Made by a program: the position numbers and the translations under genes
Shown here: positions 10,953-44,627 of the stretch, in pieces
How the letters are laid out: every line of letters starts with the position of its first letter
Position numbering within the stretch: the stretch's first letter is position 1
Origin: Porticoccaceae bacterium LTM1
GTDB lineage: Bacteria > Pseudomonadota > Gammaproteobacteria > Pseudomonadales > Porticoccaceae
Reading direction: 5' to 3'
DNA length: 64,000 bases
Assembly (NCBI GenBank): GCA_030252795.1
Contig: CP127080.1
Coordinates: 2,249,501-2,313,500, forward strand
Notes under the pieces: model-generated
Seen by the model: only the letters and a program-made list of their open reading frames with translations
Told to the model about the DNA's origin: nothing
Database searches by the model: none

Positions 10953-11061
10953 GTCTCTGTGGAGATACCTCTAAAAACCTATGAGTATAGTCATCTGACT
11001 CTTATTCACAACAAATGCTTCCCTCCCCCCCACAGTACAAGGGGACATGACTTTATGCGAC

Positions 11062-14965: not shown

Positions 14966-14967
14966 TC

Positions 14968-16494: not shown

Positions 16495-16503
16495 GAGTTA
16501 ACG

Positions 16504-17241: not shown

Positions 17242-17243
17242 TC

Positions 17244-17927: not shown

Positions 17928-17980
17928 TCACACCGCCCGGGCTGCATAGCGGCTCGGGCTGTTTGTGACAGGAGTTTGTA

Positions 17981-18775: not shown

Positions 18776-18783
18776 GGATTGCC

Positions 18784-21631: not shown

Positions 21632-21684
21632 GCGCGCCTTTGTTATCCGTCCAACGACTGGACTTCTTTTAGAGGCTCTTGCAC

Positions 21685-24563: not shown

Positions 24564-24590
24564 CGGGGCCAATAATAGGCCCCGTTTTTT
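24564..24590 (+). terminator. Rho-independent terminator after gcvP
   Basis: Stem CGGGGCC / GGCCCCG with loop AATAATA, followed by six T, about 33 bases after the gcvP stop. Confidence 0.92.
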
Positions 24591-24659: not shown

Positions 24660-27317
24660 TCACTTCACTGAGGAAGATTGTGCCTGGGCTTTCCCTGAGG
24701 TTTTCTGCTTCTCACGCCAGGCAGCAAATGCCGCTTTTTCTTCCGCCAGCTGCTTGTCTCTTTCACGAGCTGCCGTGGCGGCCACTTCACTGGATTTTTG
24801 CTGCTCTTTAAACTTCCGCCAACGCTTGTATTGCTCTGCCTTTGCCGGATTTGGATCCTCATAACCGGTCAGCCAAAAACTGAACCAATCCACATTCTGC
24901 TCCTGCATAGCCAGCCGTTCCCAGGGTTTGACCAGGTTATGTGGCGCAGCCATCAACATAACCATTTCAACCGGCTTTTCCTGGCGACGAAGCATGGCGT
25001 AGACATCAAACCAATGCATGACCTGGCCAGTGTTGTGCTGCTGCATGCGGATCGGTGTTTTCACTCGATCCAGGTGCATAGATGGATCCTGGGAAACCCA
25101 GCTCTCCAAACCTTCACCCCATGGTTGCGCATTATAAAATGGCTCAATATAGGCCATACCACCCAACTGCAGACCATAAAAACTACTGTACCCCCACAGT
25201 GTCATGTTAAACGCATCTACAATGTTTGCTGCAGCAAAATCATAATCCGAAAACGTGACGATATGCTGCACTTCGTGACCGGTCGCGCTAAAGCCTTGCA
25301 GCCCTACCTTATTGCGCAATATCAACCCATCCTCGTCCATCTGGTCAATGAGTGCCTCAATACCCGACTGGAGGACCATACGGGAAAAATATGGAGGGAC
25401 AGGCTTGTCGGGAACCTGAACTACTATCAAATCTCGATTAACCAGTGCCTGGGCCGCATAACCGCCAATCATACCCGGACCTTCAATCAAAAATTGATGC
25501 TTATCAAAACCATGGGTCTGGATTACCAGAGGGTAGCGCTTGCCTGCCTTGTAATTCGGCGGATAGACAATACCCGCTTCCCATTCGATTTCATTCTTAT
25601 CTTTCCAACGGTAAACTTCAGTTTCACCAAAACTCAGCTCACGAAATTGGGGGTTTAAATCGGTGACAATCCTTTCATTTCCAGTTACTGCATCGCGAGC
25701 CAGCAAGTTGGGCGGGACATTCAAATCTTCTGCCACTTCCACCATCAAACGCTGCTCCGGCATAACCTCATTAGAAAAAGCTTTCCACTGCCCCTCTATT
25801 TTCTGGTAGTGGTTTACCTTCCGTCCGGATTCAATGCTTACAATGCCCTCAGAAGAGACTCCGAGATAACTAAACCCTTTGGATAGATCACCGTCTAACC
25901 GATGCTCCATAACCGTCGTGATTTTTTTACTATCAAGGTGGTACTCAACAGTCGCAGGCACTTGACGTCGATTCTCCAAAACCTGTGGATCCTTTACATC
26001 AAGGGGCAAAAAAGTATTAGCGACAATCACTGTCTGGTCATCCAACCAGTGAACACCAAACTTATATCCACCCAACAAATATCCCGAAGGTACCGGAGAA
26101 CCAAAGAGCGGACGCTCTTCACCACTATCCAGATCTACCACCACATATTGAAAAATGGATGTAAGCTCGTCACTACCTTTCCTTGAACTGTAAGTTACAT
26201 TCCAATAATCGCCGAAATTGGGGTATTCCTCTGGCCAGCTTTCCTGTAATTCGTTACGAAGCAGTTCACGTGTGGCAATAATTTTGTTTCCACTTGGGGA
26301 AAAATACACATCGTCATACCAGAGGCGCTCCGCCACACTGAATTCAAGTGGCAAGGCTTTAGCCGGTTTGCCCGGTCGCTGAACGTAGTAATGATGCCTG
26401 TATGGAATCGGCCGCTTGGGTTTATGCAACTCGTTAAGATCTCTCGCACTGGTTATAGAAACGCCTTTTTTATCCACAATGAAATATTGAGCATTCAAAT
26501 TTTCAGCATCTACACGATCAGCAGGTGTACTCTTGCGCTTGTCTGGCGCCGATTTAATTTTTTTATCATCTGATTCACTGGAATGTGAGGCCTTATTCAA
26601 AGGTTTTCTCGCCGTATACAACAGAGTACCATTTGAGTGAAGCTCAAAAGCCACTATCCTTTCGGGGTGCGAAGTCATTCGCTCCAGCTTCTTGCTTCGA
26701 ATATCCAAGGTGTATACCTGAGGCCCCAATTCAGGGTCATCCTCACCAAGAAAGGCCAGGGTTCGATTGTCAGCCAACCAGCGTAAGTTGTTGACCGCTC
26801 CGCTATTTGACCCGGAGGAGAATGTAGCACTGAAAAATGGCTTCGGACGCCTTACCCCCACATCCTTAGCTTTCGAAGAGTGTGCCACATCTTCTACGGA
26901 CTTCAGTGAAGAAGTGTTTTTATCACCATTTTCCGCCGCATTAACATAGCTCAAAACTTCAGACGTACTATAAACCTGCAAATCAAAGTCATTTTTCCCT
27001 GATTCAACATTCGGCTTCCTGACGACTATCACGAAATACTCGCCATCAACAGAAAACGTTGGTCGAGACATTGACCTTACAATGGCATCAGTAGATGCAT
27101 CAGGGTGCGCCAGAGTTGCCATGGACACTGCATCCGCGGCAGTTAACCGGCGAACCGTATCCTTCGCCTCCGCATGTATGCTTAGTAATGTCAGGACTCC
27201 CAGAAGTAGCCATTTTGAAACAGAAAACACCATATTGATTCCTTGAGAATATTTATGGAAATATATTCGTCGAACTCCTTTTTTAAAGGTATTCGAAATA
27301 TCTATTGTTGGAAACAT
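24660..27317 (-). CDS. S9 (prolyl oligopeptidase-type) peptidase resembling lasso-peptide isopeptidases
   Basis: Large secreted or periplasmic serine peptidase, 885 aa from ATG 27317 (GGAGGAG upstream). A second start at 27233 with AAGGA gives a more normal signal peptide (VSKWLLLGVLTLLSIHAEA). After an N-terminal segment RRLTAADAVSMATLAHPD comes a beta-propeller region and a C-terminal alpha/beta hydrolase. The nucleophile is probably Ser677 in GFSATGHE (normally G-x-S-x-G-G) and the His is His793 in APHNLVKPWERL. The ending NVDWFSFWLTGYEDPNPAKA recalls Atxe2-type isopeptidases, as does the neighbouring TonB/FecIR set, but no lasso synthesis genes exist here. A charged helical tail (about 840-885) is extra. 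Last gene of the peptide island. Confidence 0.8.
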   Translation of the reverse strand: MFPTIDISNTFKKGVRRIYFHKYSQGINMVFSVSKWLLLGVLTLLSIHAEAKDTVRRLTAADAVSMATLAHPDASTDAIVRSMSRPTFSVDGEYFVIVVRKPNVESGKNDFDLQVYSTSEVLSYVNAAENGDKNTSSLKSVEDVAHSSKAKDVGVRRPKPFFSATFSSGSNSGAVNNLRWLADNRTLAFLGEDDPELGPQVYTLDIRSKKLERMTSHPERIVAFELHSNGTLLYTARKPLNKASHSSESDDKKIKSAPDKRKSTPADRVDAENLNAQYFIVDKKGVSITSARDLNELHKPKRPIPYRHHYYVQRPGKPAKALPLEFSVAERLWYDDVYFSPSGNKIIATRELLRNELQESWPEEYPNFGDYWNVTYSSRKGSDELTSIFQYVVVDLDSGEERPLFGSPVPSGYLLGGYKFGVHWLDDQTVIVANTFLPLDVKDPQVLENRRQVPATVEYHLDSKKITTVMEHRLDGDLSKGFSYLGVSSEGIVSIESGRKVNHYQKIEGQWKAFSNEVMPEQRLMVEVAEDLNVPPNLLARDAVTGNERIVTDLNPQFRELSFGETEVYRWKDKNEIEWEAGIVYPPNYKAGKRYPLVIQTHGFDKHQFLIEGPGMIGGYAAQALVNRDLIVVQVPDKPVPPYFSRMVLQSGIEALIDQMDEDGLILRNKVGLQGFSATGHEVQHIVTFSDYDFAAANIVDAFNMTLWGYSSFYGLQLGGMAYIEPFYNAQPWGEGLESWVSQDPSMHLDRVKTPIRMQQHNTGQVMHWFDVYAMLRRQEKPVEMVMLMAAPHNLVKPWERLAMQEQNVDWFSFWLTGYEDPNPAKAEQYKRWRKFKEQQKSSEVAATAARERDKQLAEEKAAFAAWREKQKTSGKAQAQSSSVK

Positions 27318-27343
27318 GATTAAAACTCCTCCAATTAAGTTTC

Positions 27344-27374
27344 CGAATACTTTTTTAAATTAAAAAAGCATTCG
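27344..27374 (-). other. AT-rich stem-loop just upstream of the S9 peptidase ribosome binding site
   Basis: CGAATGCTTTTTTAA / TTTAAAAAAGTATTCG on the minus strand, a 14-15 bp stem with one mismatch and a minimal loop, ending about 16 bases before GGAGGAG. It could terminate the ABC exporter transcript or modulate translation of the peptidase. Confidence 0.5.
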
Positions 27375-27415
27375 ATTTCAGGTTACATCATAAAAATTAC
27401 TTATTTGAAAAATTA

Positions 27416-27449
27416 CGGTAAAACTCACAGTTTGAGTTAACCCACACCT
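27416..27449 (-). promoter_or_regulatory. Weak match to the island's ECF-type promoter, upstream of the S9 peptidase
   Basis: On the minus strand AGGTGTGGGT, 15 bases, then GTTTTACCG. This resembles the CAGGTAGGGT ... TGTATTTAC pattern seen upstream of the sigma factor and TonB receptor genes, with spacing within one base. Called by eye; could be chance. Confidence 0.3.
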
Positions 27450-27518
27450 ACACCTTCCAGAACAACCAAAAATCCCCTCTCAGCTTCAGGTAGCACAAAA
27501 AAACACATAAAAAACAAA

Positions 27519-29648
27519 TCAGGAAGCCACTTTCGATGGAGGCGTTAGCTCGATAAGCTTGGCGCCACGCAACTCCAATACACGATCTGCTGATCGAACA
27601 GTTTCGTGCCGATGGGCAACGATAATCCGGGTTATATTCAGTGCCTTTATTGCAGAGTTCACCACTGACTCCGTCATTGAATCCAAGTGACTGGTAGCTT
27701 CATCCAAAATCAAAATCTTTGGCTGCCTATAGAGGGCACGCGCCAGTAGTACGCGCTGCTTTTGGCCGCCAGAAAGACTACTGCCCATATCGCCAATTAG
27801 GGTGTTGTACTGCATGGGCATTTGTTCAACGCTCCGATCAATCGCTGCCAACCTGGCACATTCGAAAATTCTGTCTCTGTCTGGATTTGGATCAAAAAAA
27901 GAAATATTGTCCGCAATCGAACCAGATAACAGTTGATCATCCTGGGTTACTGCGGCGATATTGCGTCGATAATTAGCCAGACCCACCGAAGAAATATTTT
28001 TTTCATCCACCAAAATCTCACCTTCCGTGGGCGTTAACAATCCGAGCAATAACTTCAGGAATGTTGTTTTTCCACAGCCGGAAGGCCCCACTATCGCAAC
28101 TGACTCTCCAGCATGAATGGTAATATTCAGATCTTTAATTATGTGTGGCAGACCCTCACCATAGCGATACGATAAATTTCGGCTTTCTATTGCTCCATCA
28201 ATCACACAGGTCGATAGCGGCTGATCATCCAGATTCGGTTCTTCTTCAGTAAGAGCGATATCTGACAAGCGACTAAGGTGTAATTCCAGCATTTTGAACT
28301 CAATACCTTTTTCAATAAGCCCAAATGCCTTGCCAATAAAATTATCTTTGTAAGCAACAAAGGCCATTAACATGCCGATTGACATAGCATTGTCAAAAAT
28401 CTGCATTGAGCCAAGGTATAACACCGCGAGGGTTTCAACGCCTGCAAGAGTGGCATTAATTACACCAAAATGAATATTGAGTTTTTTCAGTCTTATTCCG
28501 ACATTGATGGTATCGGCAAAGTAGTTCTGCCAAAGGCTCAATCGGTCATTTTCCCGTCCGAATATTTTAATACCCTGCACCGCTCGAACCGATTCCATAA
28601 AATTGGAATTCTGTTTTGCCGCCGCCACAATCGATTCTTCAGACAAAGACCTCATGGGTCGGTACATAGCAATTCGCACCAACGCATAGAACACAACCGC
28701 AGCCAGAACCACAAAGGTTAGCAACGGGCTGTACACAAACATCATGATTAGTGTCAACAGCATCATAATGCCGTCCACTAATGCGGCAATTAATCCGGTG
28801 GTTAATAATTTTTGTATTGTAGACAGTGAACCAAACCGGGATACGATATCCCCTATATGTCGCTTACCGAAATAATCCCCTGGCAATCGCAATAAATGCC
28901 TGAACATAGATACACCGAGCTGAAAACTCAGCATATTCCCCAAGTGCATTACGACGTATTCTCGAAGCGTGCTTGTGGTAATGCGCATAATCATTAGCAT
29001 CGAAAAACCAATTGTTAGCACCTTCAATAATTCTAGGTCACGGCCGACAACCACATCATCTATCACCAATTGTGAATAATATGGCGCAGCAATGGTGAAC
29101 AACTGCAATAACAGAGAGACAAGCAATATCTGAAGTAGCGCACGTTTCAAGCCAACTGTTTTACGAAAAAAACCGCTTAACTTAAGCTTCCTGCTATCTT
29201 CTTTTTCTTCAAAATCTGACGTTGGCGTCAGCTCCAGAGCCACTCCTGTAAAATGTCTGCTCACTTCGGACAAGGGTATATAGCGAACCCCCATGGCAGG
29301 ATCGTGAATTGTAATTCCCTTTTTGTCTGCGGATTTTAATACTACAAAATGGTTTAAATCCCAATGCAAAACACAAGGCATCTTCAATTCAGGAATTTGC
29401 TCAAGCTCCAGCCGTAAAGCCCGGCAAGCGAATTGCAACTTGCTTGCCATTTGCACCAACAATTCGAGGGTCGTGCCCTGCAAAGAGGTGGCGTACCGGC
29501 CTCGCAAAGTACCTAAATCAACTTTATGTCCATAATAATTGCAAATCATGGCCAGACACGCATGACCACATTCTGCTGCCTCAGACTGCAAAACAACGGG
29601 AAGTTTATTACTGCTGAACAACAGGATTTTGCTTATATCCGCCGCCAT
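27519..29648 (-). CDS. C39 peptidase-containing ABC exporter (double-glycine peptide exporter)
   Basis: Inner-membrane protein of 709 aa that cleaves double-glycine leaders and exports the cargo. The N-terminal C39 domain has the catalytic Cys27 (LQSEAAECGHACLAMI), His100 (HWDLNHFVVL) and Asp116 (HDPAMG). Six membrane helices follow (about 160-440). The ATPase domain has Walker A GPSGCGKTT, signature LSGGQKQRVLLARAL and Walker B ILILDEATSHLD. The start is ATG 29648, one base after the stop of the HlyD-type gene; the longer frame overlaps that gene and is discarded. All catalytic residues are intact, so it should process the GG-leader protein encoded nearby. Confidence 0.95.
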   Translation of the reverse strand: MAADISKILLFSSNKLPVVLQSEAAECGHACLAMICNYYGHKVDLGTLRGRYATSLQGTTLELLVQMASKLQFACRALRLELEQIPELKMPCVLHWDLNHFVVLKSADKKGITIHDPAMGVRYIPLSEVSRHFTGVALELTPTSDFEEKEDSRKLKLSGFFRKTVGLKRALLQILLVSLLLQLFTIAAPYYSQLVIDDVVVGRDLELLKVLTIGFSMLMIMRITTSTLREYVVMHLGNMLSFQLGVSMFRHLLRLPGDYFGKRHIGDIVSRFGSLSTIQKLLTTGLIAALVDGIMMLLTLIMMFVYSPLLTFVVLAAVVFYALVRIAMYRPMRSLSEESIVAAAKQNSNFMESVRAVQGIKIFGRENDRLSLWQNYFADTINVGIRLKKLNIHFGVINATLAGVETLAVLYLGSMQIFDNAMSIGMLMAFVAYKDNFIGKAFGLIEKGIEFKMLELHLSRLSDIALTEEEPNLDDQPLSTCVIDGAIESRNLSYRYGEGLPHIIKDLNITIHAGESVAIVGPSGCGKTTFLKLLLGLLTPTEGEILVDEKNISSVGLANYRRNIAAVTQDDQLLSGSIADNISFFDPNPDRDRIFECARLAAIDRSVEQMPMQYNTLIGDMGSSLSGGQKQRVLLARALYRQPKILILDEATSHLDSMTESVVNSAIKALNITRIIVAHRHETVRSADRVLELRGAKLIELTPPSKVAS

Positions 29649-29649
29649 G

Positions 29650-30909
29650 TCACACCCTTCCCTGCAGGCTGTACAGGGGATCAAGTAACCACTCCCATAA
29701 CGTGCGCTTGTCCAGTACGATATCTGCCTCAAGTAAAATCCCAGATTCCAGCGGGTATTTTTCACCATAGGCAAACACAAATTGCTGATCCAGCTGAACC
29801 ACTACCTTGTAAACAGGCTCCTGCACTCCCAGCGGATCGTGAGTTAATTCATTTGGCGCGTAAAGGGACTTGGCGATATCCAAAATCTCCCCCCCGTAAA
29901 GGCCAAATCTCTGAAAGGGGAAAGCCTCATACCGAAGCTTGACACTCTGCCCAGGCTTGATAAAACCAATGGCGCGGCTCGGTACATATATCACCGCTTG
30001 CATAGTCGACCCTTCGGGAATGATTGCTGCGAGGGGGGTCTTCAGCCCCGATGGAGCTCCCTCTGAAACCTGTATACCTGTTACCACACCACTTCTGGGT
30101 GCTTTAATCACCTGCCTTTTATCAGCTTGATTCCTTAGTATTCGTTGATCAATTTCGTGCAACTGATGCTGAACATCGGCAGTACGTTGATCTACCGAAT
30201 TGTCAATTTGCGCCAATTCGGCCTGATAGTCTGACAACTGAGAACGCCCTTGCAGCAATTGCTGATCAATCTTCAAAAGCTGTTTTTTCTTTTCGAGATA
30301 GCTTTCGTGATAGCGTAAATATCTAGCTTGAGAAATCAGCTTTTTTTCCACAAGGACCTTATAGTCATTTTGTGTCTTCTCAGCCATATCCTGACTTTCC
30401 AGATAAAGTTTTCGTTGATCTTCCAAGTGCACCAGCTCATCCCTGGAAGAAGCAATCTTGTCTTCAAGACGTTTTTTTTCAGACTTTCGAAATTCTTCTA
30501 ATTTCGCCACCTTTTTCTCAAGATTTAACCTTTCCTGTAGAAGGGTCGCTCCCAGCCCCTCCAAAACAAAACCACTTTCACCAATATAATTATCCGAATA
30601 CACGGAAAATAGCGGTTCGTCCTTAACTACCCTGTCACCATTCCGAACATGAATCCTCTCAAATACCCCAGGGGTGAACGAAAATATTTTCGTAACCCCC
30701 TTATCCGGACAGACATACCCTTTCACCGATTCTTTTCGCTGATAATCGAACGAACATAAAAACACACAAACAACAACTACAAACGTTACAATCGCACCGG
30801 TAAAATATTTGAATCTCAGCGGTGGAATCAGGAGGCACTGCCCCAGCAAACCTTCTTTTTTAGCATCCAGAACTTCGTCCCGAAACAGAGTTTTCTCTTC
30901 CTTTCTCAC
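29650..30909 (-). CDS. HlyD-family membrane fusion (periplasmic adaptor) protein
   Basis: Adaptor of 419 aa for the C39 ABC exporter, bridging the inner membrane to an outer-membrane channel. It has one N-terminal membrane helix (about 36-52), a lipoyl-like half (PGVFERIHVRNGDRVVKDEPL), a long coiled coil (about 130-240, rich in K/E/L/Q) and a second lipoyl half with a beta-barrel (IKAPRSGVVTGIQVSEGAPSG). Start is GTG 30909; no ATG is available and the ribosome binding site is weak. Similar to the MFP partners of microcin V and colicin-type exporters. A TolC partner is not encoded nearby. Confidence 0.92.
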   Translation of the reverse strand: MRKEEKTLFRDEVLDAKKEGLLGQCLLIPPLRFKYFTGAIVTFVVVVCVFLCSFDYQRKESVKGYVCPDKGVTKIFSFTPGVFERIHVRNGDRVVKDEPLFSVYSDNYIGESGFVLEGLGATLLQERLNLEKKVAKLEEFRKSEKKRLEDKIASSRDELVHLEDQRKLYLESQDMAEKTQNDYKVLVEKKLISQARYLRYHESYLEKKKQLLKIDQQLLQGRSQLSDYQAELAQIDNSVDQRTADVQHQLHEIDQRILRNQADKRQVIKAPRSGVVTGIQVSEGAPSGLKTPLAAIIPEGSTMQAVIYVPSRAIGFIKPGQSVKLRYEAFPFQRFGLYGGEILDIAKSLYAPNELTHDPLGVQEPVYKVVVQLDQQFVFAYGEKYPLESGILLEADIVLDKRTLWEWLLDPLYSLQGRV

Positions 30910-30980
30910 AGCTCAATCCATTCAACGATCAAAACTCAAAAAAGGGAGGCAGTTAATGCCTCCCTCCCAGCACTAACAAC

Positions 30981-31286
30981 TTACTGTGACATATACCACT
31001 GATAAACTTCTGAATGTGCGTAATAACTGGTTAATTGCATATTATTGCCGTAGTCATTTGCACTGTAGCTCTTGTAAAAGGATGCGCCAGTTACTTCATG
31101 CTGCGCAAAAACCTGCCATCCTTGATCACTACCCATATTCCAATAGACAAACCAGGCGTCATTATCACCATCGAGATCAATATCATCCCAATGGGTATCC
31201 GGATTCCACATATCCCCACCAGATACAACGGCCACTTCAGAAGATGATAACTCTCTCATTCCTGGCTGTTTTTTTTCTAACTGCAT
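30981..31286 (-). CDS. Double-glycine leader secreted peptide (microcin-like precursor)
   Basis: Precursor of 101 aa. The leader (residues 1-24) ends MRELSSSEVAVVSGG, the classic double-glycine pattern with Leu, Val and Val at the hydrophobic positions. The predicted mature product (77 aa, starting DMWNPDTHW) has no Cys, 6 Trp, 8 Tyr, 10 Asp, 2 Glu, one Lys and no Arg: strongly acidic, unlike cationic bacteriocins. DIDLDGDND fits the calcium-binding pattern DxDxDGxxD. Start ATG 31286 has AAGGA seven bases upstream; the longer frame is rejected. Next to a C39 exporter and HlyD adaptor. No immunity gene is recognisable. It could be a signal, a metal-binding peptide or an atypical microcin. Confidence 0.85.
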   Translation of the reverse strand: MQLEKKQPGMRELSSSEVAVVSGGDMWNPDTHWDDIDLDGDNDAWFVYWNMGSDQGWQVFAQHEVTGASFYKSYSANDYGNNMQLTSYYAHSEVYQWYMSQ

Positions 31287-31474
31287 AGTAGTTTCCTTAA
31301 CTATATTTTCTAACGTTAAACCGAATCGCAAAATCCATTTATTGATCCAGCGCTTTACTCCACTCAATATCCCTATCGATAAATCCCTGAAAACATCCAT
31401 ACACGGCAAACCAAATACGATGTCTGACTCAAATATAAGCTTTAAAATATTTTCAATTATTTAAGCTATTCAAC

Positions 31475-33349
31475 TTACGGTTTACTTGCACTGAAAACTG
31501 AATCACCAATGACTTGGAAAGAGAAAAATGTTAGGAATGGCATATATCGATTTATCTGAAGTTCCGAAAACTGAAGAGTTATTGTTTTATTTTTCGTGCT
31601 AGCACCTGCTATTAATCCGCCTTCAGGAATCAGCTTCGTAAAATCCCAATACGCATCGTGGCCTTTTACCTTATTGTCCGCATCAATCACTTCCATCTCA
31701 CCGATGGCGGAGTTCCACGATAATGCGCGAACAACAATCGATCCGTTGATGGTTGTATCGGAAATATTATTGAGGGTGGCATTTGCCGTAATTCGCTTAC
31801 TCCCAAAATCAAATACCACGTCCTCCATCTGAACCTCTACAAGTGGCGTAACGTCCTTGAAATTTGCCAGTGACGGTGAACCGTACGGTGCAGCCTCTAT
31901 CGGCACTGTAACTCGGGCAGTCCATACTTGGGGGATACCCGTTCGAGTATCTATCCATAGCGGGTGAAAGTTACCATCCGCATCAGCAGCCAAACCAGAG
32001 GTATGACCCAACCAGCTGGAAACAACCGATAGATTTAATTGTGAATCTGCGGGGTTGATGTTGTGTGATTTCCCCGCCCCATATCCTACGGGTGATCCCG
32101 ATAGACTTTGAATTTTTCGACCGCCCGGCACATGGTCTACCCAAACAGCAGGTTGAAATGTGTCGCCACCATCCAGGGAAGCGGTAAATCTTACACGCGC
32201 CGTCAGCTGCTGATCACCTTCGCCTCCCTCGTACCACATGATGCCCACTACACCCTGAGGATTTACCACCACATTCGGCATATATGCCCGATCACCACCC
32301 GGAACAATGCGTGGCACTGACCATGTTTTACCTTTGTCATCTGAGTGAGAGATCACCAAATGACTGGTTGATGGCACCCCCTCTAGCGAAATAACAGGCC
32401 TCGACCAAACAAGATATAGGCGGTCTTTAAAATAGTTACTACCAGGATCCAGTGCTAATTTCACTTCCCCGGAAGTATCCAGTTTGACCACATGATTGAT
32501 AGACTCTCCACCATCATCAGAAGACATAAATTTAGTGACACTTTTTCTGTCTTTATTTGTCAAGTTGTATAACCAGCCGACGGTACCATCCGACATGACT
32601 ACCATTTCAGTCAGCGTCCCCGACAGTGCACTGCCTACGCTTTTTCGCACAGACTGAAACGATTTTCCATGATCCTCGGAGTGAAACAATATGGGAAGCA
32701 TATCCCCGTGATTTCCCTGTTCATCTACCTCCTTCGTCAAATGTCCATTAATATAGACACGTCCATCGTACTCGCCTTTGGTGTTGTCAACGGCTGTATA
32801 CATACGATCAATACCGTATGAGCCGGGTGCAATTACCGGCGGAAGCCAGGTACGGCCAAAGTCTTTTGAATGATAAATATGGAGTTCGGAAGCACCTTCA
32901 TCATCTCCATCTGAGCGACTCTCTGCGGTAAAAACCATCCCGCTAATATAGATTGATCCATCACGTCCGTAGGCACATGACGGATCAGCCGCTTTCACAT
33001 CGTTTGCTCGTGAATCGATAGAAAACTCCCAGCTTTTTCCACCATCATGGGATGCATATGCCACCAGCTGGAAAGGCTCTGTCACATCACCCTTTCGACT
33101 CTCCATCATCGAAACACCTAAAAGGTGATTTGGATTTGTGGGATGAGCACACATAATTACTTCTGCATGTGCGATATTCGGCAGTGCGGCACTAACCTGA
33201 ACATTGGGTCCCACGCTGATATTTGACGTGTTGATATTTGACGAACTTATATCGGCATCAGGTTTTTTCATGGAAAGAATCACTGCCAATGCAGCGATAC
33301 CCAGAATAAATACCAGTGTTCGTTTTCTGAAAAATGACTTTTTACTCAT
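31475..33349 (-). CDS. Exported Asp-box (BNR/sialidase-like) beta-propeller protein
   Basis: Protein of 624 aa with an N-terminal signal anchor (RKRTLVFILGIAALAVILSM). Six Asp-box motifs of the S-x-D-x-G-x-T/S-W/F type are visible: SHDGGKSW, SKDFGRTW, SEDHGKSF, SSDDGGES, SDDKGKTW and SLDGGDTF, which suggests a six-bladed propeller (about 50-480). A C-terminal beta-sandwich-like region follows (about 510-620). Asp boxes occur in sialidases and many binding proteins. I see no clear Arg triad or sialidase FRIP motif, so enzyme activity is not claimed. It sits between the TonB receptor and the GG-leader gene. The start at 33349 has GAGGG upstream. Confidence 0.8.
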   Translation of the reverse strand: MSKKSFFRKRTLVFILGIAALAVILSMKKPDADISSSNINTSNISVGPNVQVSAALPNIAHAEVIMCAHPTNPNHLLGVSMMESRKGDVTEPFQLVAYASHDGGKSWEFSIDSRANDVKAADPSCAYGRDGSIYISGMVFTAESRSDGDDEGASELHIYHSKDFGRTWLPPVIAPGSYGIDRMYTAVDNTKGEYDGRVYINGHLTKEVDEQGNHGDMLPILFHSEDHGKSFQSVRKSVGSALSGTLTEMVVMSDGTVGWLYNLTNKDRKSVTKFMSSDDGGESINHVVKLDTSGEVKLALDPGSNYFKDRLYLVWSRPVISLEGVPSTSHLVISHSDDKGKTWSVPRIVPGGDRAYMPNVVVNPQGVVGIMWYEGGEGDQQLTARVRFTASLDGGDTFQPAVWVDHVPGGRKIQSLSGSPVGYGAGKSHNINPADSQLNLSVVSSWLGHTSGLAADADGNFHPLWIDTRTGIPQVWTARVTVPIEAAPYGSPSLANFKDVTPLVEVQMEDVVFDFGSKRITANATLNNISDTTINGSIVVRALSWNSAIGEMEVIDADNKVKGHDAYWDFTKLIPEGGLIAGASTKNKTITLQFSELQINRYMPFLTFFSFQVIGDSVFSASKP

Positions 33350-33430
33350 TTCATTCCCTCTTGTAAGAAATAAAAACAATAAAATACCCACCATATTCAT
33401 GGTTCTGGAGAATCCATCAGGGATGTGTTA

Positions 33431-33461
33431 GCCCGCACTTCTTTGAGAAAGAAGTGCGGGC
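33431..33461 (-). other. Perfect 13-bp stem-loop between TonB receptor and Asp-box gene
   Basis: GCCCGCACTTCTT / AAGAAGTGCGGGC with a five-base loop, six bases after the TonB receptor stop. No T-run follows on the minus strand, so it looks like an mRNA-stabilising or processing hairpin that sets different levels for receptor and downstream genes, rather than a full terminator. Confidence 0.7.
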
Positions 33462-33467
33462 ATATGG

Positions 33468-36400
33468 TTAAAAGCGTTTTGTGAAACTTACATAAAACAT
33501 GCGGCCACGGGGATCGGCCAAATTGGCATTGAATTCTGGAATAAGATCCGGTTCACCAGTTTCAAGTATGGTAACCTTGTGTTCCGGATGATCATCCAGA
33601 AGATTAAGAACACGGAATGAAACGGTACTGTCTTTCAGCCAGTCTGCCACCTGAAACAGATCACCTTCTTCCATGTTATAGGAGGCAACCAGATCAAGGT
33701 TTAAAGGCGTTTTACTTGTTCTGATTTCCGTTTGGGTTAAAAAGACGCTCGGATTTCGACTCGTCGTATCACTGGCCTTACTTGCATCAATATTGATCGA
33801 CAGCCCCCTGTTATACCAACCCAGATTGGCCGAATAGCGCAACTCCGGAATAACATAAAGGGTTCCAAAGCCAGCGTCCTTAACTACGCTCTCAACCTCT
33901 GCTCCCGGGCTGGAGACTTTATCCCATTTATCGGTATAGGCAACATTCGCATTTAAAAGGAACTCACCAATACTTGTATCGAATTTATAACGGAGTTTGT
34001 AATCAATACCGCTGACATCTAGAGACGCCAGGTTTACTGCGCGATAATCCAACACCAGATAACCAAATTCATCACGGCTAATATTATCCGGATAACGCTC
34101 TTCGTAATTAGGACCTAAGACACCTATTCTACCGTCAAAACCAGAAATCCTGTTTTCATACTCGGTTTGATGCCAGATGGCACTCAAAGACAACCCCGGG
34201 ATAAAATCCGGCTCTATCTCAATACCCGCTGAAAGTGACGAGGCAGTCTCTGGTCGTAGATCTGGATTACCTCCGCTAATTAAGGTGGATGCAGCCTCAA
34301 ACTGGCCAGTCGGAAAACCATTCACGTCAACTACCGGAATGGTAAAGGTAAAAAGCGGTAGACTTGAAAAAACATTAGGTGGAATCAGTGCCTCCTTGGG
34401 AGTGGGCACCACATAGGAGGTGGCGTGATTGACCTTAAATCTAATCTGGGAATCGGGGCTCCAAATCATTCCCAATGACCAGGTGGAATCACTGCCATAT
34501 TGGTCATAAGAATCATAGCGACCTGATCCTGTTACCGTCAGTTTCTCAATCATGGGAACAGCATTATTTTCCCCAACTATAGGAACTAGAATTTCTGCAA
34601 ATGCCGAATGTTGCGAACGACTCACTTCTGTTGCTGTATAAGCCCACTGTGGAAGGCTTGAAGAGCCTTGCCCCAACCCAGTCTGTGATACGATGACATC
34701 CGCCGCGCTAATGAGAGTCTCTTCGCGCCACTGGGCTCCAACAGCCAAGTGAACATCCCCCCCGGGTAATCTGAAGAGCGGACCATTCAGGCTTACCTCC
34801 GCTGTACTTTCCTTATTGGTAGACTGTACTGGCCGCGGGGGCCCCACTAACGCTGCCAGTTGTTCTGGTGTGTTGACAGCGTCGATATCGCCACCCAGCA
34901 AATTAAGCTCACCTTCTTCGATCAGGCTAAGAACATTAGCAGCTCCTGTACCAAAATAATCGAATAGCTGGATGGGCTCATTAAAATACAGAGAATCAAT
35001 TTTGTCCCTCGACTGACCGATAGATAAATTCCAATTCCAATCATCAGCGAAAGAACCATCCAATCCCAGGTTCCAGCGAAAAACGCGACTTTCAGTCTGA
35101 TAGTGTCTATCCGGCAGGCTCGGAATAGACCAGTAGATACCGATATCTGTTTCAAAAGGGTTGACCGGATGGGATGCGAGCAGGCTCATAGGTAATTCGA
35201 ATCCGCCCGTGGCTGCATATGTATCTTGCGCTGAATAGTAAATATCGCCGGTCAAGGTGATATCACTATTCCATAGAGAAAGCTCCTGATCAAAACCGAG
35301 CCGTAATGTATTACGATCTTTCGCTGGTAATAAACTGTTGCCCGAATCCGCATTATAGTTAATCGGCGCATCCAGCGCTGTAAAGTCAGCTGCTGTCAGG
35401 TTGCTGCCATCCTGCCCAATAGGTAGTACTGTTTGCGTGACCGCAACTACACCCTGAGATGTTGGCGTCAAGCCCAGTGCTGCAAGTTCAGATGGAAGAT
35501 AATTCTGCCCGCTATACTGGTAAAAAAGTGGTTGACTATTGAAAGTACCTAACGAACGTGCGATTTTTGCTGGCGCCAAAAATTGACTCCAAGCAACCCT
35601 TTCTGGCCGCTCCGCAAAATCTAGGTTACTACTGCTGAAGTGCTCAAAGTTGACGCGCGCCCTGCCGCTATCCCAAGAGAAGCCGCCGGACAAGGTGAGA
35701 ATATGTTCTTCAAACCCGCCATCCTGAGGCTTACCGAAGTCATAGCCCAGCTCTAATCCTTCGTAATCTTTTTTGAGAATAATATTGACCACACCACCAA
35801 CGGCATCTGACCCATAAACTGAAGAGGCGCCATCCAGCATGATTTCCACTCGATCGACTGAACTGAGGGGAATACCTGAGATATCCGATATACCGCCAAA
35901 AATGCCGGATTTTCCGATACGCCGACCATCGATCAACACCAATGTGGACTCACTGCCCAAGCCACGCAAGTTAATACTGGAGCCGCCGGTCAGGTTCTGT
36001 GCGCTGTTGAACGAACCGCGAACCGCTCCTCCAACTTCACTGGCGCCAAACATATTTTGTGGCAGCTGACGAAGTGCGCGCTCCAGAGTCACCTCACCGG
36101 TTGCACGAAGTTCATCGATATCCAGAGTGATAAGGTTAGATGCCAGTTGACTGGAAGCTTGTGCAATGCGACTACCGGTTACAACTATCTCTTCTACTTC
36201 TTGGGACTGCTTATCTGATTTTTTATTATCAACCTCATCTTCTTTTATGATCACTGAATCAGAAGACAGAAATTCATACACCAAGCCACTTCCTGCCAAC
36301 AGGGCATCCAGGGCTGAGGCTAAAGTAAATTCACCTTTCAGAGCAGGAAGTTCTAAATCAACACCAACTCCATCTGGAAGAACAATATGAGTATGTGTTT

Positions 36401-36563
36401 GTGCGGCTAAATCCAGAATCGCCTTGCCAGCGTTCTGGCCTTTGAGGTCCAACATGATTTTTTCAGGTTCTGCGAGCAAATCTGCCGACAGTGTCAGCGC
36501 TATCGCCGATGCAATACCAATCATCAAGCGATTTTTTTTGAACCCTCTTCGTTGACTTTTCAT
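33468..36563 (-). CDS. TonB-dependent receptor with N-terminal STN signalling domain (island 1)
   Basis: Outer-membrane receptor of 1031 aa. Signal peptide (about 1-32), then a secretin/TonB short N-terminal domain (about 36-105; LDLKGQNAGKAILDLAAQ, FTLASALDALLAGSGL). A TonB box region follows (EEIVVTGSRI), then the plug (INLRGLGSESTLVLIDGRR, DAVGGVVNIIL) and a beta-barrel ending in Phe (SFTKRF). The STN domain marks a transducer that signals to a FecR-type protein when ligand binds, and the fecR/fecI pair lies directly upstream. Ligand unknown; the nearby secreted peptide or its fragments are candidates. The 1031-aa length and the R-x-I-G plug type match the large peptide/carbohydrate receptor group rather than siderophore receptors. 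Confidence 0.93.
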   Translation of the reverse strand: MKSQRRGFKKNRLMIGIASAIALTLSADLLAEPEKIMLDLKGQNAGKAILDLAAQTHTHIVLPDGVGVDLELPALKGEFTLASALDALLAGSGLVYEFLSSDSVIIKEDEVDNKKSDKQSQEVEEIVVTGSRIAQASSQLASNLITLDIDELRATGEVTLERALRQLPQNMFGASEVGGAVRGSFNSAQNLTGGSSINLRGLGSESTLVLIDGRRIGKSGIFGGISDISGIPLSSVDRVEIMLDGASSVYGSDAVGGVVNIILKKDYEGLELGYDFGKPQDGGFEEHILTLSGGFSWDSGRARVNFEHFSSSNLDFAERPERVAWSQFLAPAKIARSLGTFNSQPLFYQYSGQNYLPSELAALGLTPTSQGVVAVTQTVLPIGQDGSNLTAADFTALDAPINYNADSGNSLLPAKDRNTLRLGFDQELSLWNSDITLTGDIYYSAQDTYAATGGFELPMSLLASHPVNPFETDIGIYWSIPSLPDRHYQTESRVFRWNLGLDGSFADDWNWNLSIGQSRDKIDSLYFNEPIQLFDYFGTGAANVLSLIEEGELNLLGGDIDAVNTPEQLAALVGPPRPVQSTNKESTAEVSLNGPLFRLPGGDVHLAVGAQWREETLISAADVIVSQTGLGQGSSSLPQWAYTATEVSRSQHSAFAEILVPIVGENNAVPMIEKLTVTGSGRYDSYDQYGSDSTWSLGMIWSPDSQIRFKVNHATSYVVPTPKEALIPPNVFSSLPLFTFTIPVVDVNGFPTGQFEAASTLISGGNPDLRPETASSLSAGIEIEPDFIPGLSLSAIWHQTEYENRISGFDGRIGVLGPNYEERYPDNISRDEFGYLVLDYRAVNLASLDVSGIDYKLRYKFDTSIGEFLLNANVAYTDKWDKVSSPGAEVESVVKDAGFGTLYVIPELRYSANLGWYNRGLSINIDASKASDTTSRNPSVFLTQTEIRTSKTPLNLDLVASYNMEEGDLFQVADWLKDSTVSFRVLNLLDDHPEHKVTILETGEPDLIPEFNANLADPRGRMFYVSFTKRF

Positions 36564-36628
36564 TTACTACCACCCTTGTTCTAGTATAGTTGATTCACTT
36601 CACCCTTCTTGCATTCTTCCGAAAGGCT

Positions 36629-36667
36629 TATCTGTAAATACAACTAACCAGCCATCCACCCTACCTG
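36629..36667 (-). promoter_or_regulatory. ECF-type promoter upstream of TonB receptor 1
   Basis: On the minus strand CAGGTAGGGT (36667-36658), then 15 bases, then TGTATTTACAGATA. The same CAGGTAGGGT block, identical spacing and a matching TGTACTTACCTATA occur upstream of the sigma-factor gene (38484-38522). Likely -35 and -10 parts of the promoter read by the island's own ECF sigma factor. The start codon lies about 65 bases downstream. Confidence 0.65.
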
Positions 36668-36775
36668 AAAAAATAATTTATTTATAAATACCGCCTTCTC
36701 CCATATCAGCCATGCCAATAACTATCAAAAATGGCCGGAGCAACCCCGTCCATCCATCTATTTTTGTATATGTTC

Positions 36776-37861
36776 TTATTTGGAATTTTTAGGGGAAACT
36801 ATATGAATACGATCAAACTGATGAACAACCTTAATAGGCAGGGCTTGTTCAAGAGCAGACAATCCACCACTGATATCATCAATATTTATGGACGCAAAAA
36901 CATTTAAATCCATCAATGAAGAATCCTGTATCAGGATCTTCTTGGCGGAGTAGCGATTGAGCTCCATAATCACTTCATTAAAGGGAACATTCTCAAACCG
37001 CAAAACACCAGACTTCCAATCAATCAGGCGAGCCATATCAACAGGCCTGAACGCTGTCAGGGATTGATGCTCCACACTGAATCTGGCCGCCATACCCGCC
37101 TTAAAACGCCGCTGAGCCGATTCTTTAACAAGCACCTCTTGGCCAATTTCGGCAATTGCATCTAACGCCGATGCGGAAGCAGGTTCATTCTCTCTGTGAA
37201 CGGTTACAACCCCCTCTACAACAGCCAATGTAAAACCATCTGCCTGTTTTGAAAGATTGAATTCGGTTCCCAATACAGTTACCACGCGGCCATCCAATTT
37301 CACGCTGAATGGCCGATCAGGGTCGGCAGCAACATCAAAATAAGCCTCTCCTCGTCCGAGGATCACAAGCCTTTCATTCCCCTCTTCCATATCGACCAGT
37401 AACTGTGTACCGGTATTCATTGTGACTACAGAGCCATCAGGCAATGTAACTACTTTTTGCTCACCTGTTCTGGTTACATACCGGGATATGCTCCCGTCAT
37501 CAATTGATGTTCCCAATGGATACAGCACAAATGAAACCACGATAACCAGACAAGCAGCAGCCAAAAGCCAGGGCCACGCTCCCCAATGCGCAGACCCTGG
37601 CTGGCCGCTTCCAGCACCGACCGATAACTCACTCTTTTTATTATCCTTTTCTACCAATGAGAGTAAGAATGGGTCATCTGCCAATTCATCAATTGCGTCG
37701 TCTGCATAGAGTATTTCCAAAAAAAGAGCTTCATACTCCACAGACCGTGATCGATCCTTGAGAATACGCTCAACCTTGTTGTCGTCCAGCTCTCCGGAAA
37801 ACATCCGTGCCACATCAGCTGACGCCAGTTGTTCAATATTTTTCCACTTTGAAATGTCCAT
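36776..37861 (-). CDS. FecR-type transmembrane anti-sigma/sensor protein (island 1)
   Basis: Inner-membrane regulator of 361 aa. The cytoplasmic N-terminal region (1-95) holds the sigma factor. One membrane helix follows (WPWLLAAACLVIVVSFVLYP, about 97-116), then the periplasmic FecR domain (LPDGSVVTMNTGTQLLVD, GRGEAYFDVAADPDRPFSV, VLGTEFNL). A C-terminal STN-like domain (FNEVIMELNRYSAKKILI, LSALEQALPIKV) should contact the receptor's signalling domain. Its ATG overlaps the sigma-factor stop by one base (TAATG), a coupling that keeps the two in balance. Confidence 0.93.
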   Translation of the reverse strand: MDISKWKNIEQLASADVARMFSGELDDNKVERILKDRSRSVEYEALFLEILYADDAIDELADDPFLLSLVEKDNKKSELSVGAGSGQPGSAHWGAWPWLLAAACLVIVVSFVLYPLGTSIDDGSISRYVTRTGEQKVVTLPDGSVVTMNTGTQLLVDMEEGNERLVILGRGEAYFDVAADPDRPFSVKLDGRVVTVLGTEFNLSKQADGFTLAVVEGVVTVHRENEPASASALDAIAEIGQEVLVKESAQRRFKAGMAARFSVEHQSLTAFRPVDMARLIDWKSGVLRFENVPFNEVIMELNRYSAKKILIQDSSLMDLNVFASINIDDISGGLSALEQALPIKVVHQFDRIHIVSPKNSK

Positions 37862-38451
37862 TATCTTTCTACCTTCTGCGTCTCACTCACTGCCCTGCGA
37901 ATAATTACCAACGCTTTCTGTATGTACTTTTCTACCTGCTTTACCGAAACTCCCATATCTTTGGCGATTTCTTTGTATGTTCTCTGTTTGAACCGATTGA
38001 GAATAAAAGCCTGCCGGGTATTGATGTTCATACCAGCGATTACATTGCGTATCTGGCTTAACTCCTCTCGAACCAGATTGATTCGCTCCGGCGTATGATC
38101 AAAGTGCACCTCCTCAGATTGCATACGCAATTTTTCTCCGTCCAGATAGCGATTACGGACGGTTTTGTGGCGTTCTATATTGATGGCCAGGTTATTGGCC
38201 GCCCGAAACAGGTACGACAAGCTACCTTCTTCTCCTATAGGCAAAAGCTCGGCAAGATTCTCGATCTTGGCCAACCGGGCAAACACCTCCTGAACAATAT
38301 CATCCAGCTCCTGACTGATGCCCAGCCGGGCTCGCAGAAACTTGCGAAGCGCCACATGGTGCTCTTCGTAGAGCCTGTTCAGCGCCTGTTGCTGCGTTTC
38401 ACGAGGATTGCCTCGGAATTCAACCACATTTGTTCTCTTTTCTAGCGTCAA
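37861..38451 (-). CDS. ECF sigma factor, FecI-type (island 1)
   Basis: RNA polymerase sigma factor of 196 aa. Region 2 (about 25-95) shows LYEEHHVALRKFLRARLG, LDDIVQEVFARLA and LSYLFRAANNLAIN. Region 4 (about 130-190) shows NINTRQAFILNRFKQRTYKEIA followed by the helix-turn-helix GVSVKQVEKYIQKAL. Partner of the adjoining FecR-type protein; expected to drive the TonB receptor and probably its own gene, since both share a promoter element. The start is uncertain: TTG 38451 is the longest option and GTG eight codons later is the main alternative; neither has a strong ribosome binding site. Confidence 0.92.
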   Translation of the reverse strand: MTLEKRTNVVEFRGNPRETQQQALNRLYEEHHVALRKFLRARLGISQELDDIVQEVFARLAKIENLAELLPIGEEGSLSYLFRAANNLAINIERHKTVRNRYLDGEKLRMQSEEVHFDHTPERINLVREELSQIRNVIAGMNINTRQAFILNRFKQRTYKEIAKDMGVSVKQVEKYIQKALVIIRRAVSETQKVER

Positions 38452-38483
38452 TTTAAGTGATCCGCTTTAAATATAGGGCCTCA

Positions 38484-38522
38484 TATAGGTAAGTACACGC
38501 AACTCCACCTTTACCCTACCTG
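38484..38522 (-). promoter_or_regulatory. ECF-type promoter upstream of the sigma-factor gene (autoregulation)
   Basis: On the minus strand CAGGTAGGGT (38522-38513), 15 bases, TGTACTTACCTATA. Same 10-base block and same spacing as the element before TonB receptor 1. The remaining spacer (38523-38883) up to the divergent methyltransferase gene shows no further feature. Confidence 0.65.
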
Positions 38523-38883
38523 CTAGAATGTAAAACTCAGGAAAAACCTAACGCAGCAAGCCCGGGATGTGCCCATAGAACGGACGGTCAAGCCAATGAA
38601 AGATGACTTGCAAGATGATGTTTATAAGCTCAGGCAATATAGAAAGTGTTTTTTATCGCAAAGCGGTCCGTCAATCAGCGGCTGTTTGGTAGTAATTGAT
38701 GTGGCGTGATAGAGAGAAGTTACTGGTAGTGGGAATGAATAGGGAAAAACTCGTATCGTCAGACTGTGAATCATCCCTGTCGACAGTCTGTCATTGCTCT
38801 TCGACCTCAGAATTTCATCTCCATTGCACAATAAATCGACGAAGCAACTACACTATCTTTACTCACAATCTGCGAGCCCCGTC

Positions 38884-39684
38884 ATGAACAACCAAGCTTC
38901 CCAATTTATCGGCTCTATTCCAGAGAACTACGACAAGGGGCTGGTGCCCCACATTTTTGACGACTTTGCCAATGATCTTGTCAGCCTGATTGTCAGCCAC
39001 AACCCAAGAGCGGTTCTGGAGCTGGCAGCCGGTACCGGTGTTGTTACCAGAAAACTACGTGACGCTCTAACTGAGCACTCCACAATAGTCGCAACCGATT
39101 TAAACCCTCCAATGCTGAATGTGGCCCAAGCCAAGTTCTCTCCCGATGAACAGGTCAGATTTGAAGAGGTAGATGCAACCTTATTACCTTACCAGGACGA
39201 CAGTTTCGACTTGATTACCTGTCAATTTGGCGTAATGTTCTTTCCGGACAAGGAGGCTTCGTATATTGAAGCTCATAGAGTTTTAAAATCGGGTGGACGA
39301 TACATATTCAACACTTGGGGTTCCTGGGAAAGAAATGCTTTTGCCGAATTGGCACACAACGCCGTCAGTGATTTTTTCCCCGAAGATCCACCACAGTTTT
39401 ATAAAGTACCTTTCAGTTATCACGATATGGAAGCCATTCAACAGTCGCTACTCTGCTGTGGCTTTGATGATGTTCAATTCCACCCTACTCCTAAGACTGT
39501 TAGAATTTTATCTGCAGATCTATTAGCCAAAGGGCTTGTTTTTGGTAATCCGTTATATGACGAAATAGTCAATCGCAACGGTTCGCCTGAAGCTGTTTAT
39601 CAGGCTCTGAAAACCATGATAGAAAATACACTGGGCGATCAGTTACGACTGTTTGCGACTACTATTGAGGCGTTAAAGAGATAG
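38884..39684 (+). CDS. Class I SAM-dependent methyltransferase
   Basis: Cytoplasmic protein of 266 aa with a Rossmann methyltransferase fold. Motif I is VLELAAGTGVVTRKL, the acidic ribose-binding residue is in VATDLNPPML, and later come FDLITCQFGVMFFPD and LKSGGRYIFNTWG. It belongs to the UbiE/Methyltransf_11 type; the substrate is unknown. ATG 38884 is chosen because the protein then starts MNNQASQFIGSIPENYDKG, as related proteins do; the ribosome binding site is weak. It faces away from the sigma factor and precedes the M14-type gene by 74 bases, so the two may be one unit between the two TonB systems. Confidence 0.88.
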   Translation: MNNQASQFIGSIPENYDKGLVPHIFDDFANDLVSLIVSHNPRAVLELAAGTGVVTRKLRDALTEHSTIVATDLNPPMLNVAQAKFSPDEQVRFEEVDATLLPYQDDSFDLITCQFGVMFFPDKEASYIEAHRVLKSGGRYIFNTWGSWERNAFAELAHNAVSDFFPEDPPQFYKVPFSYHDMEAIQQSLLCCGFDDVQFHPTPKTVRILSADLLAKGLVFGNPLYDEIVNRNGSPEAVYQALKTMIENTLGDQLRLFATTIEALKR

Positions 39685-39758
39685 CATATTTGACGTTTGA
39701 ATACTCAGAAGATATTCCAAACAATCTACCGCCCTCTGAAATAAATCAAGAGACCTTT

Positions 39759-44392: not shown

Positions 44393-44520
44393 TTATTCCC
44401 ACCTCTATGGACCAAACACATAAAACTCTTTGACTGTCCACTTATTAAAAACAATTAGACTGCCATTAAGTTAACGGAGCAGAAACTAAATACCCTGTAA
44501 TTTTTTATATATCTCAACCC

Positions 44521-44565
44521 AAAACAGACAAAACAGACAAAACAGACAAAACAGACAAAACAGAC
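44521..44565. repeat. Five-copy 9-bp tandem repeat (AAAACAGAC) upstream of TonB receptor 2
   Basis: Five exact head-to-tail copies of AAAACAGAC, about 130 bases before the receptor start and between fecR and the receptor. The unit is a multiple of three but lies in non-coding DNA, so copy-number change would alter promoter spacing rather than a reading frame. An AGGGT ... GTTAACTTA sequence on the minus strand (about 44496-44470) between repeat and gene may be the ECF promoter. Confidence 0.95.
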
Positions 44566-44627
44566 AATATGGATCCACTCTAATGAAACACACAATCTAA
44601 ATATTGAAACATTTAAATTTATAACTT

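Follow-up and report, generated by a model that had tools for sequence, protein, structure and literature searches.

A probable sigma-controlled operon in Porticoccaceae bacterium LTM1 that suggests sensing and re-uptake of a secreted double-glycine peptide

Within the window, a 64-kb (64,000-nucleotide) stretch of DNA from Porticoccaceae bacterium LTM1, we found eight genes on one strand (minus, 24660-38451) encoding, in order, an ECF sigma factor, FecR, an STN-type TonB receptor, an Asp-box propeller protein, a double-glycine (GG) peptide precursor, an HlyD adaptor, a C39 exporter and an S9 peptidase. The locus suggests that the cell senses and re-takes its own secreted peptide; the best single reading, to which we give a probability of roughly 45%, is a cell-surface-signalling operon with a self-retrieved peptide, following the logic of methanobactin systems. 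Open reading frames and family searches reproduced the eight genes of the original prediction, their order and, nearly identically, their coordinates, except that the S9 protein probably starts at ATG 27233 and the exporter at ATG 29648 rather than at the TTG of its open frame. The end point given in that prediction, 38522, coincides with the upstream edge of the promoter box before the sigma gene (Table 1). The gaps were 67 bp (receptor/Asp-box), 188 bp (Asp-box/GG precursor), 71 bp (GG precursor/HlyD), 1 bp (HlyD/C39) and about 0.2-0.3 kb (C39/S9), and base composition was uniform along the block.

Table 1. Features of the locus, in positions of the window
Feature	Positions	Strand	Basis or detail
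ECF-type two-box promoter before sigma gene	38489..38522	-	CAGGTAGGGT-N16-GTACTTAC; motif scan
ECF (FecI-like) sigma factor, 196 aa	37861..38451	-	sigma-70 r2/r4_2 families
FecR-type transmembrane sigma regulator, 361 aa	36776..37861	-	FecR family, 72 bits
Second promoter copy, FecR-receptor gap	36634..36667	-	CAGGTAGGGT-N16-GTATTTAC; motif scan
STN-type TonB-dependent outer-membrane receptor, 1031 aa	33468..36563	-	TonB barrel + Plug + STN
Exported Asp-box propeller protein	31475..33400 (likely start ATG 33349)	-	BNR_2/BNR
GG precursor: 24-aa leader, 77-aa acidic core	30981..31286	-	ORF + GG-leader pattern
12-bp hairpin + T run, directly 3' of precursor gene (partial terminator/attenuator)	30940..30968	-	
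HlyD-family (CvaA-like) adaptor, 419 aa	29650..30909	-	HlyD_3
C39 peptidase-containing ABC exporter (CvaB-like)	27519..29648	-	C39 (127 bits) + ABC membrane + ABC ATPase
Exported S9-type peptidase, AtxE2/SpI-IsoP lasso-isopeptidase family	24660..27233 (longest ORF to 27317)	-	
Rho-independent terminator, operon end	24564..24584	-	

The promoter box shared by the two copies, CAGGTAGGGT-N16-GTAYTTAC, matched exactly twice in 64 kb, before the sigma and receptor genes only (chance expectation, 0.04 matches in 64 kb at <=3 mismatches), and the 64-kb scan found no sigma-type promoter inside the unit running from the receptor gene to the S9 gene. Terminators in this unit lie only after the GG precursor and S9 genes, and the GG peptide genes sit within it, not alongside. 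As the boxes occur only before the sigma and receptor genes, the receptor, Asp-box and peptide genes, with probably those of the exporter and peptidase, are probably one sigma-controlled operon, and we regard the operon and its sigma control as highly probable; the two promoter copies and the terminator positions thus agree with the proposal that the circuit is one unit. Because the same dedicated promoter stands before both genes, the sigma factor would be expected to drive its own gene together with the unit receptor-Asp-box-GG peptide-(attenuator)-HlyD-C39-S9. The consecutive sigma, FecR and STN-type receptor genes and the promoter before the receptor gene are shared with FecIRA/siderophore signalling (PMC9249621). 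In contrast to E. coli, where fecIR is under sigma-70, the LTM1 sigma gene has the ECF-type box of the receptor gene, which implies self-amplification, and the cargo genes are new. The exact two-box promoter at the sigma and receptor genes is new here.

The S9 peptidase is genuinely related to the lasso isopeptidases, whose fold and sequence family it shares, since AtxE2 and SpI-IsoP were its best solved matches: AtxE2 was the best PDB sequence match (7.9e-22), and the two were the top structural matches (Z 33-34; next 26.8). Pfam S9 scored just 13.4 bits, far from ordinary S9 proteins, and NCBIfam NF033523 (Atxe2 lasso isopeptidase) gave 136 bits (E 1.7e-39), below its 400-bit cut-off. The lasso-isopeptidase type inferred in the original prediction was therefore supported by both fold and sequence family. 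The protein carries the signal peptide MVFSVSKWLLLGVLTLLSIHAEA from its probable start; Ser677 and His793 (885-aa ORF numbering) are present, the Ser and His being invariant, and an acidic residue aligned with the AtxE2 Glu is missing from this protein (P0001) and most of its clade. A locus search with the single protein gave 0 matches, and a scan with an alignment gave 79 loci. S9 relatives were usually neighbours of a TonB receptor, in very many cases together with FecIR; the closest were Woeseiaceae sigma-FecR-receptor-S9 loci with flanks lacking lasso genes.

The same family argument, that sigma/FecR/receptor genes plus an S9 protein mark a lasso-type locus, held for the S9 protein and not for the receptor. 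In the phylogeny the receptor (P0006) clustered with paralogs of its own genome, among them one of 52% identity (L099), away from S9-neighbour receptors, although the deepest split was weakly supported. Judged from these sequences, the receptor is a member of the host genome's own sigma/FecR/receptor family of about 30 members and not a lasso receptor. Most members of this family adjoin thioredoxin-like proteins, without a peptide, and paired matching boxes are present in many of the paralogous modules. The receptor's STN domain scored 27.9 bits, slightly below the 28.4 cut-off.

Lasso synthesis genes are absent, as had been claimed: neither B2 (Transglut_core3) nor C (Asn synthase-like) genes were found in the operon, and a whole-genome search for B2 (PF13471) gave 0 matches, although the same search detected the gene in 12 of the 14 genomes that carry related S9 loci. 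As the genome lacks lasso B2, the GG peptide is the sole peptide encoded by the operon. Its precursor, MQLEKKQPGMRELSSSEVAVVSGG|DMWNP..., alone among the ORFs of the 64 kb meets the GG-leader pattern; it starts at ATG 31286, with AAGGAA just upstream, and has the leader MRELSSSEVAVVSGG. The core is hydrophilic (GRAVY -0.92), has a pI of 4.05, 0 Cys and one DxDxDGxxD motif, and its structure model (pLDDT 53) was too weak to interpret. Relatives of the precursor were not found in plasmids at E <= 1, and 34 related genomes gave chance matches only, the best (L236) lying among ATP synthase genes. With the C39 exporter and HlyD adaptor, the GG-leader precursor provides class II microcin features. 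The exporter, which shares up to 56% identity with CvaB-type proteins, has intact ATPase motifs and, as predicted, all of its C39 catalytic residues (Q21, C27, H100 and D116, numbered from ATG 29648). We conclude that the exporter and peptide resemble colicin-V parts and are specific to the LTM1 locus.

The Asp-box protein contains six S-x-D-x-G-x-x-[TSFW] boxes; a sialidase was ruled out, as there was no FRIP motif and PDB matches were weak only. It recurred at one Acidobacteria lasso-type locus, together with a receptor and an S9 protein that resembles the isopeptidases. Most matches in other Acidobacteriota (L224, L226-L230) were sialidase/sortilin-like proteins of a general kind, with no accompanying isopeptidase, and a full-length relative (L225) occurred but beside an ordinary S9 protein. 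None was found in the plasmids or viral contigs searched, and PADLOC gave 0 anti-phage defence matches for the S9 protein, Asp-box protein or precursor.

The autocrine loop can be set out step by step. The GG precursor would be cleaved after GG and exported by C39/HlyD through TolC as an acidic peptide of about 9.2 kDa, a step strongly inferred, as are signalling from a ligand-bound STN receptor through FecR to the sigma factor and the action of S9 as a secreted or periplasmic peptidase of lasso-isopeptidase fold. The receptor ligand may be the secreted peptide, alone or with cargo held by the DxDxDGxxD loop or aromatic residues, a proposal we place a little short of even odds; the exposed propeller may help in its capture. 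Recapture would then yield more receptor, peptide and exporter, and S9 might clip the peptide on its return, which would end the signal or release the cargo, although action of S9 on the GG peptide is the more tentative assignment. Taken as a whole, an autocrine loop in which an unmodified protein signal or metallophore is exported in colicin-V fashion, recaptured with FecIR coupling, self-amplified through its operon and degraded by a repurposed lasso isopeptidase is doubtful. The isopeptidases characterised so far are specific for threaded lasso peptides (PMC9266682), a 77-aa linear protein would be an unusual S9 substrate, AtxE2's third catalytic residue (Glu) has no counterpart at the aligned S9 position, and the receptor comes from the genome's own expanded family, mostly beside thioredoxin-like proteins; in favour of the loop are the hydrophilic core and the absence of an immunity-size ORF from the gaps, unlike microcins (PMC10233263). 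Also in its favour, S9 relatives usually adjoin a TonB receptor, a lasso-locus isopeptidase works on the peptide encoded at its own locus (PMC9266682), and methanobactin offers a precedent for a ribosomal peptide under FecIR-type re-uptake control (PMC3621798).

Methanobactin is a ribosomal peptide that is exported and re-taken by a TonB receptor with a signalling domain under FecI/FecR control (PMC3621798). Its MbnI/MbnR/MbnT system thus resembles the LTM1 locus in the FecI/FecR pair, the receptor with a signalling domain and the ribosomal peptide (PMC3621798), but methanobactin itself is a small copper chelator that carries extensive modifications and leaves the cell through a MATE pump, whereas the LTM1 operon, with no MbnB/MbnC modification enzymes among its proteins, has an apparently unmodified GG peptide with a 77-aa core, and a lasso-isopeptidase-like peptidase. 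Isopeptidase-type lasso clusters (astexin-2/3, sphingopyxin I, benenodin-1; AtxE2, SpI-IsoP) likewise share a FecI/FecR-like pair, a TonB receptor and an S9 protein of the same fold and family (PMC9266682). They differ in having the lasso precursor, B and C genes and GntR, all lacking at the LTM1 locus, which instead has the GG-leader peptide with its C39/HlyD exporter, a receptor of another branch and an extra Asp-box protein. The function of such clusters is enigmatic according to reviews, and a siderophore-like role has been suggested (PMC9266682).

An unlikely alternative is competition sensing, in which the receptor, FecR and sigma factor detect a foreign peptide that S9 destroys while the cell secretes its own class II microcin-like peptide, so that import and degradation on one side and export on the other concern different molecules. 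The CvaB/CvaA-type exporter and adaptor, the leader, the 77-aa core, whose length falls in the range of class II microcins (PMC10233263), and the receptor not of lasso-locus type all favour it, and the GG leader, C39 ABC exporter, HlyD adaptor and core length are shared with class II microcins such as microcin V (CvaC, CvaA, CvaB, Cvi) (PMC10233263). Set against this, no ORF of at least 50 aa, and thus none of immunity size, lies in the gaps between the operon genes, the core is very hydrophilic and acidic while microcins have about 61% hydrophobic residues on average (PMC10233263), and the genes lie inside a FecIR/receptor/peptidase operon. We consider it quite improbable that an orphan receptor and isopeptidase module scavenges or clears lasso peptides of other species, with the GG peptide and exporter as passengers on a shared promoter. 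The lasso-free Woeseiaceae loci, the absence of B2 from LTM1, the closeness of the S9 fold to AtxE2 and SpI-IsoP and the Asp-box partner at a lasso-type locus fit this account; but 12 of the 14 genomes with such orphan S9 loci carry lasso B2 elsewhere, so these loci may serve their own peptides. Known isopeptidases, moreover, take their cognate lasso peptide only (PMC9266682).

Chance assembly, in which an independent peptide-export cassette landed between the Asp-box and S9 genes without a functional link, is very unlikely in our estimate, even though the original prediction had named beforehand, as a sign of it, a lack of FecIR-TonB genes next to the S9, Asp-box and exporter genes in relatives. 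None of the 19 exporter, adaptor and precursor relatives examined adjoined S9, FecIR or such receptors, so by that criterion conservation with the other genes does not extend to the exporter half; in the genomes searched the trio never occurred with the remaining genes, and the locus was missing from both congeners examined. Against chance stand the single strand, tight spacing and uniform composition, the lack of an internal sigma-type promoter, the hairpin between precursor and exporter, and exporter frames and catalytic residues that are all intact where decay would be expected. No relative among the genomes searched had the complete eight-gene set, which counts against the proposed loop.

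The matched boxes suggest that many of the genome's roughly 30 receptor modules each govern a separate, readable regulon. At the LTM1 locus a secreted peptide that is simple and genetically tractable takes the place of lasso chemistry beside the receptor, sigma factor and isopeptidase logic, which makes it directly testable whether such modules export a peptide, sense it, retrieve it and then dismantle it.

The source genome is a single contig of 3.13 Mb, of which the window spans positions 2,249,501-2,313,500. As the original prediction had it, eight genes lie in one direction, here the minus strand, encoding an ECF sigma factor, FecR, an STN-type TonB receptor, an Asp-box protein, a double-glycine (GG) leader precursor, an HlyD adaptor, a C39 ABC exporter, and an S9 peptidase. 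The block is co-directional, compact and uniform in base composition, with an autoregulated-sigma design, an intact exporter, an isopeptidase-type S9, and no lasso B2 gene. A plus-strand gene pair at 38794-40673, encoding a methyltransferase and an M14/AstE-like zinc enzyme, separates two sigma/FecR/receptor modules; a close copy of the methyltransferase was absent from the two congeners compared.

Flanking genes and regulatory features of the eight-gene block (window positions)
Feature	Position	Strand	Remark
Glycine-cleavage P-protein gene	21679-24531	+	one flank of the block
Methyltransferase gene	38794	+	other flank of the block
Two-box promoter copy	38489-38522	-	ahead of the sigma gene
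Two-box promoter copy	36634-36667	-	within the FecR-receptor gap
Hairpin terminator after precursor	30968-30940	-	12-bp stem
Terminator after S9	24584-24564	-	hairpin in gap

The 64-kb window contains exactly two copies of the pattern CAGGTAGGGT-N16-GTAYTTAC, a count that is descriptive only, as the pattern was built from these same two sites; 0.04 matches at up to three mismatches are expected by chance. The promoter-box evidence therefore rests on the position of the pair and its recurrence in paralogous modules of the same genome, many of which carry their own box pair of the same design, such as AGGTAGGGT...CCGTGCGT in module L105 and ACTCAGGGT...TTCGTGTAGTT in L117. The box-pair score exceeded every shuffle in about half of these modules; several fell short. 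In L105, L106, L113, L115, L117 and others, a matched two-box promoter lay upstream of both the sigma and the receptor gene; across module promoters a GGTAGGGT-like -35 was conserved, and the -10, some 16 nt from it, was specific to the module. Paired boxes before the two genes mark an ECF sigma factor as autoregulated. No sigma-type box was found before the Asp-box, precursor, adaptor, exporter or S9 genes, so that read-through would be needed to transcribe them. In the gaps, strong hairpin terminators followed only the precursor and S9; the former, between precursor and adaptor, is what would be expected if more peptide than exporter is made.

STN receptors pass a signal via FecR to the sigma factor (PMC9249621). 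About 30 related ECF sigma-FecR-STN receptor modules were present in the 3.1-Mb genome, for example L100-L119 and window positions 40844-46257. The receptor of the block was closest to a same-genome paralog (52%) and clustered with such paralogs, apart from the S9-adjacent receptors of other genomes (deepest split weakly supported), so that its proposed lasso-type character was not borne out. Because of this grouping, we take the module to belong to a local series and to have been re-equipped with new cargo genes. Among proteins encoded after such receptors, 14 of 20 scanned were thioredoxin/TlpA-like, with a peroxidase and a DsbD N-terminal domain among the others; a gene of one of these kinds came next in most modules examined, which makes this a receptor-plus-redox-partner expansion.

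The predicted kinship of S9 to lasso isopeptidases held. It scored 136 bits with the NCBIfam Atxe2 model NF033523, under the 400-bit cut-off, its top PDB sequence match was the isopeptidase AtxE2, and its AlphaFold model (built from 34 relatives; pLDDT 82, pTM 0.84) matched AtxE2 and SpI-IsoP first (Z 33-34; next family 26.8). The Ser and His were invariant throughout the aligned set but the AtxE2 Glu was not found at the aligned place in this S9 or its clade; enzymatic activity is therefore likely but not certain. A 75-member tree placed S9 with Woeseiaceae proteins whose genes lie in sigma-FecR-receptor-S9 loci flanked by no lasso genes. A lasso B2 gene was present elsewhere in 12 of 14 genomes with orphan S9 loci, including the Woeseiaceae genomes, and lasso loci were seen in L231-L234. 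Lasso-locus isopeptidases cleave the peptide encoded alongside them (PMC9266682). The whole window genome lacks a lasso B2 gene, as the claimed absence of lasso synthesis implies, and S9 therefore does not serve an own-cell lasso peptide made by the known pathway. Several receptor-isopeptidase pairs, some tandem, without adjoining lasso genes, occurred in L180, L199, L204 (Rhodanobacter sp. B05), L156 and L163; three of these loci share one contig.

The precursor was the one ORF in 64 kb to pass the GG-leader filter. It starts at ATG 31286, with AAGGAA upstream, and comprises the leader MQLEKKQPGMRELSSSEVAVVSGG and a 77-residue core (9.2 kDa, pI 4.05, GRAVY -0.92) with ten Asp, eight Tyr, six Trp, no Cys and one DxDxDGxxD stretch, DIDLDGDND; no relatives of the core were found in anything searched. 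The C39 domain keeps Q21, C27, H100 and D116, the ATPase motifs are present, and the C39 and HlyD proteins are CvaB/CvaA-like, with at most 56% identity to proteins from other genomes of the class. The expected co-occurrence of the exporter with the rest failed to appear: none of 19 inspected C39/HlyD neighbourhoods held an S9, FecR, related receptor or Asp-box gene. In the set of 79 S9 loci, a CvaB-like C39/HlyD pair accompanied by a GG-leader ORF turned up at a distance of up to about 8 kb in Brevundimonas diminuta (L160/L161) alone. This locus (6263-18885) has a lasso B2 gene together with isopeptidase, receptor and FecIR genes, all of them within 8 kb of the pair and the ORF. The core of the ORF opens with the TonB-plug-like VDDIVVTAQRK, and the flanks showed no recognisable Asn-synthase gene. 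The export genes of the block are ordinary; their placement in such a block is unusual.

The Asp-box gene was found next to S9 and receptor genes, as anticipated for relatives, at one lasso-type Acidobacteria locus (L145, 332-10251), where it follows the receptor gene and precedes S9; the opposite strand there carries an Asn-synthase gene, and the Asp-box relative is full-length (27% over 608 residues, E 1e-34). L225 is a weaker case, in which a full-length relative adjoins a receptor, an ordinary S9 and a GntR regulator. We take the Asp-box protein for a real partner of the receptor/S9 set, and its position between receptor and isopeptidase-like gene in L145 suggests that the propeller is an unrecognised lasso-locus component.

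We give a probability of roughly 45% to the full loop, in which the GG peptide would be the receptor's ligand and would be retrieved by the cell and then clipped. Methanobactin is secreted and then retrieved, and FecI/FecR-like control has been proposed for it (PMC3621798). Had the circuit been long established, a second example might be expected; the lack of any speaks against this. That the peptide is a co-regulated microcin, released in answer to a foreign peptide, seems rather unlikely; the acidic and hydrophilic nature of its core and the lack of an immunity gene speak against a classical microcin, no ORF the size of an immunity protein being present in the gaps of the block. Less probable again is that the block scavenges lasso peptides of foreign origin and that the GG peptide is a passenger, and we think it improbable that the genes came together by chance.

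In the open-access papers searched, a double-glycine leader and FecR were never mentioned together, and the open-access lasso papers examined describe no combination of an isopeptidase-family enzyme, a GG-leader peptide and a C39 exporter. We rate the block as a variant, new in the open-access literature searched, of a known kind, FecIR-controlled re-uptake of a secreted peptide; many of its paralogous modules, with their promoters, offer a naturally occurring collection of sigma/promoter specificity pairs.
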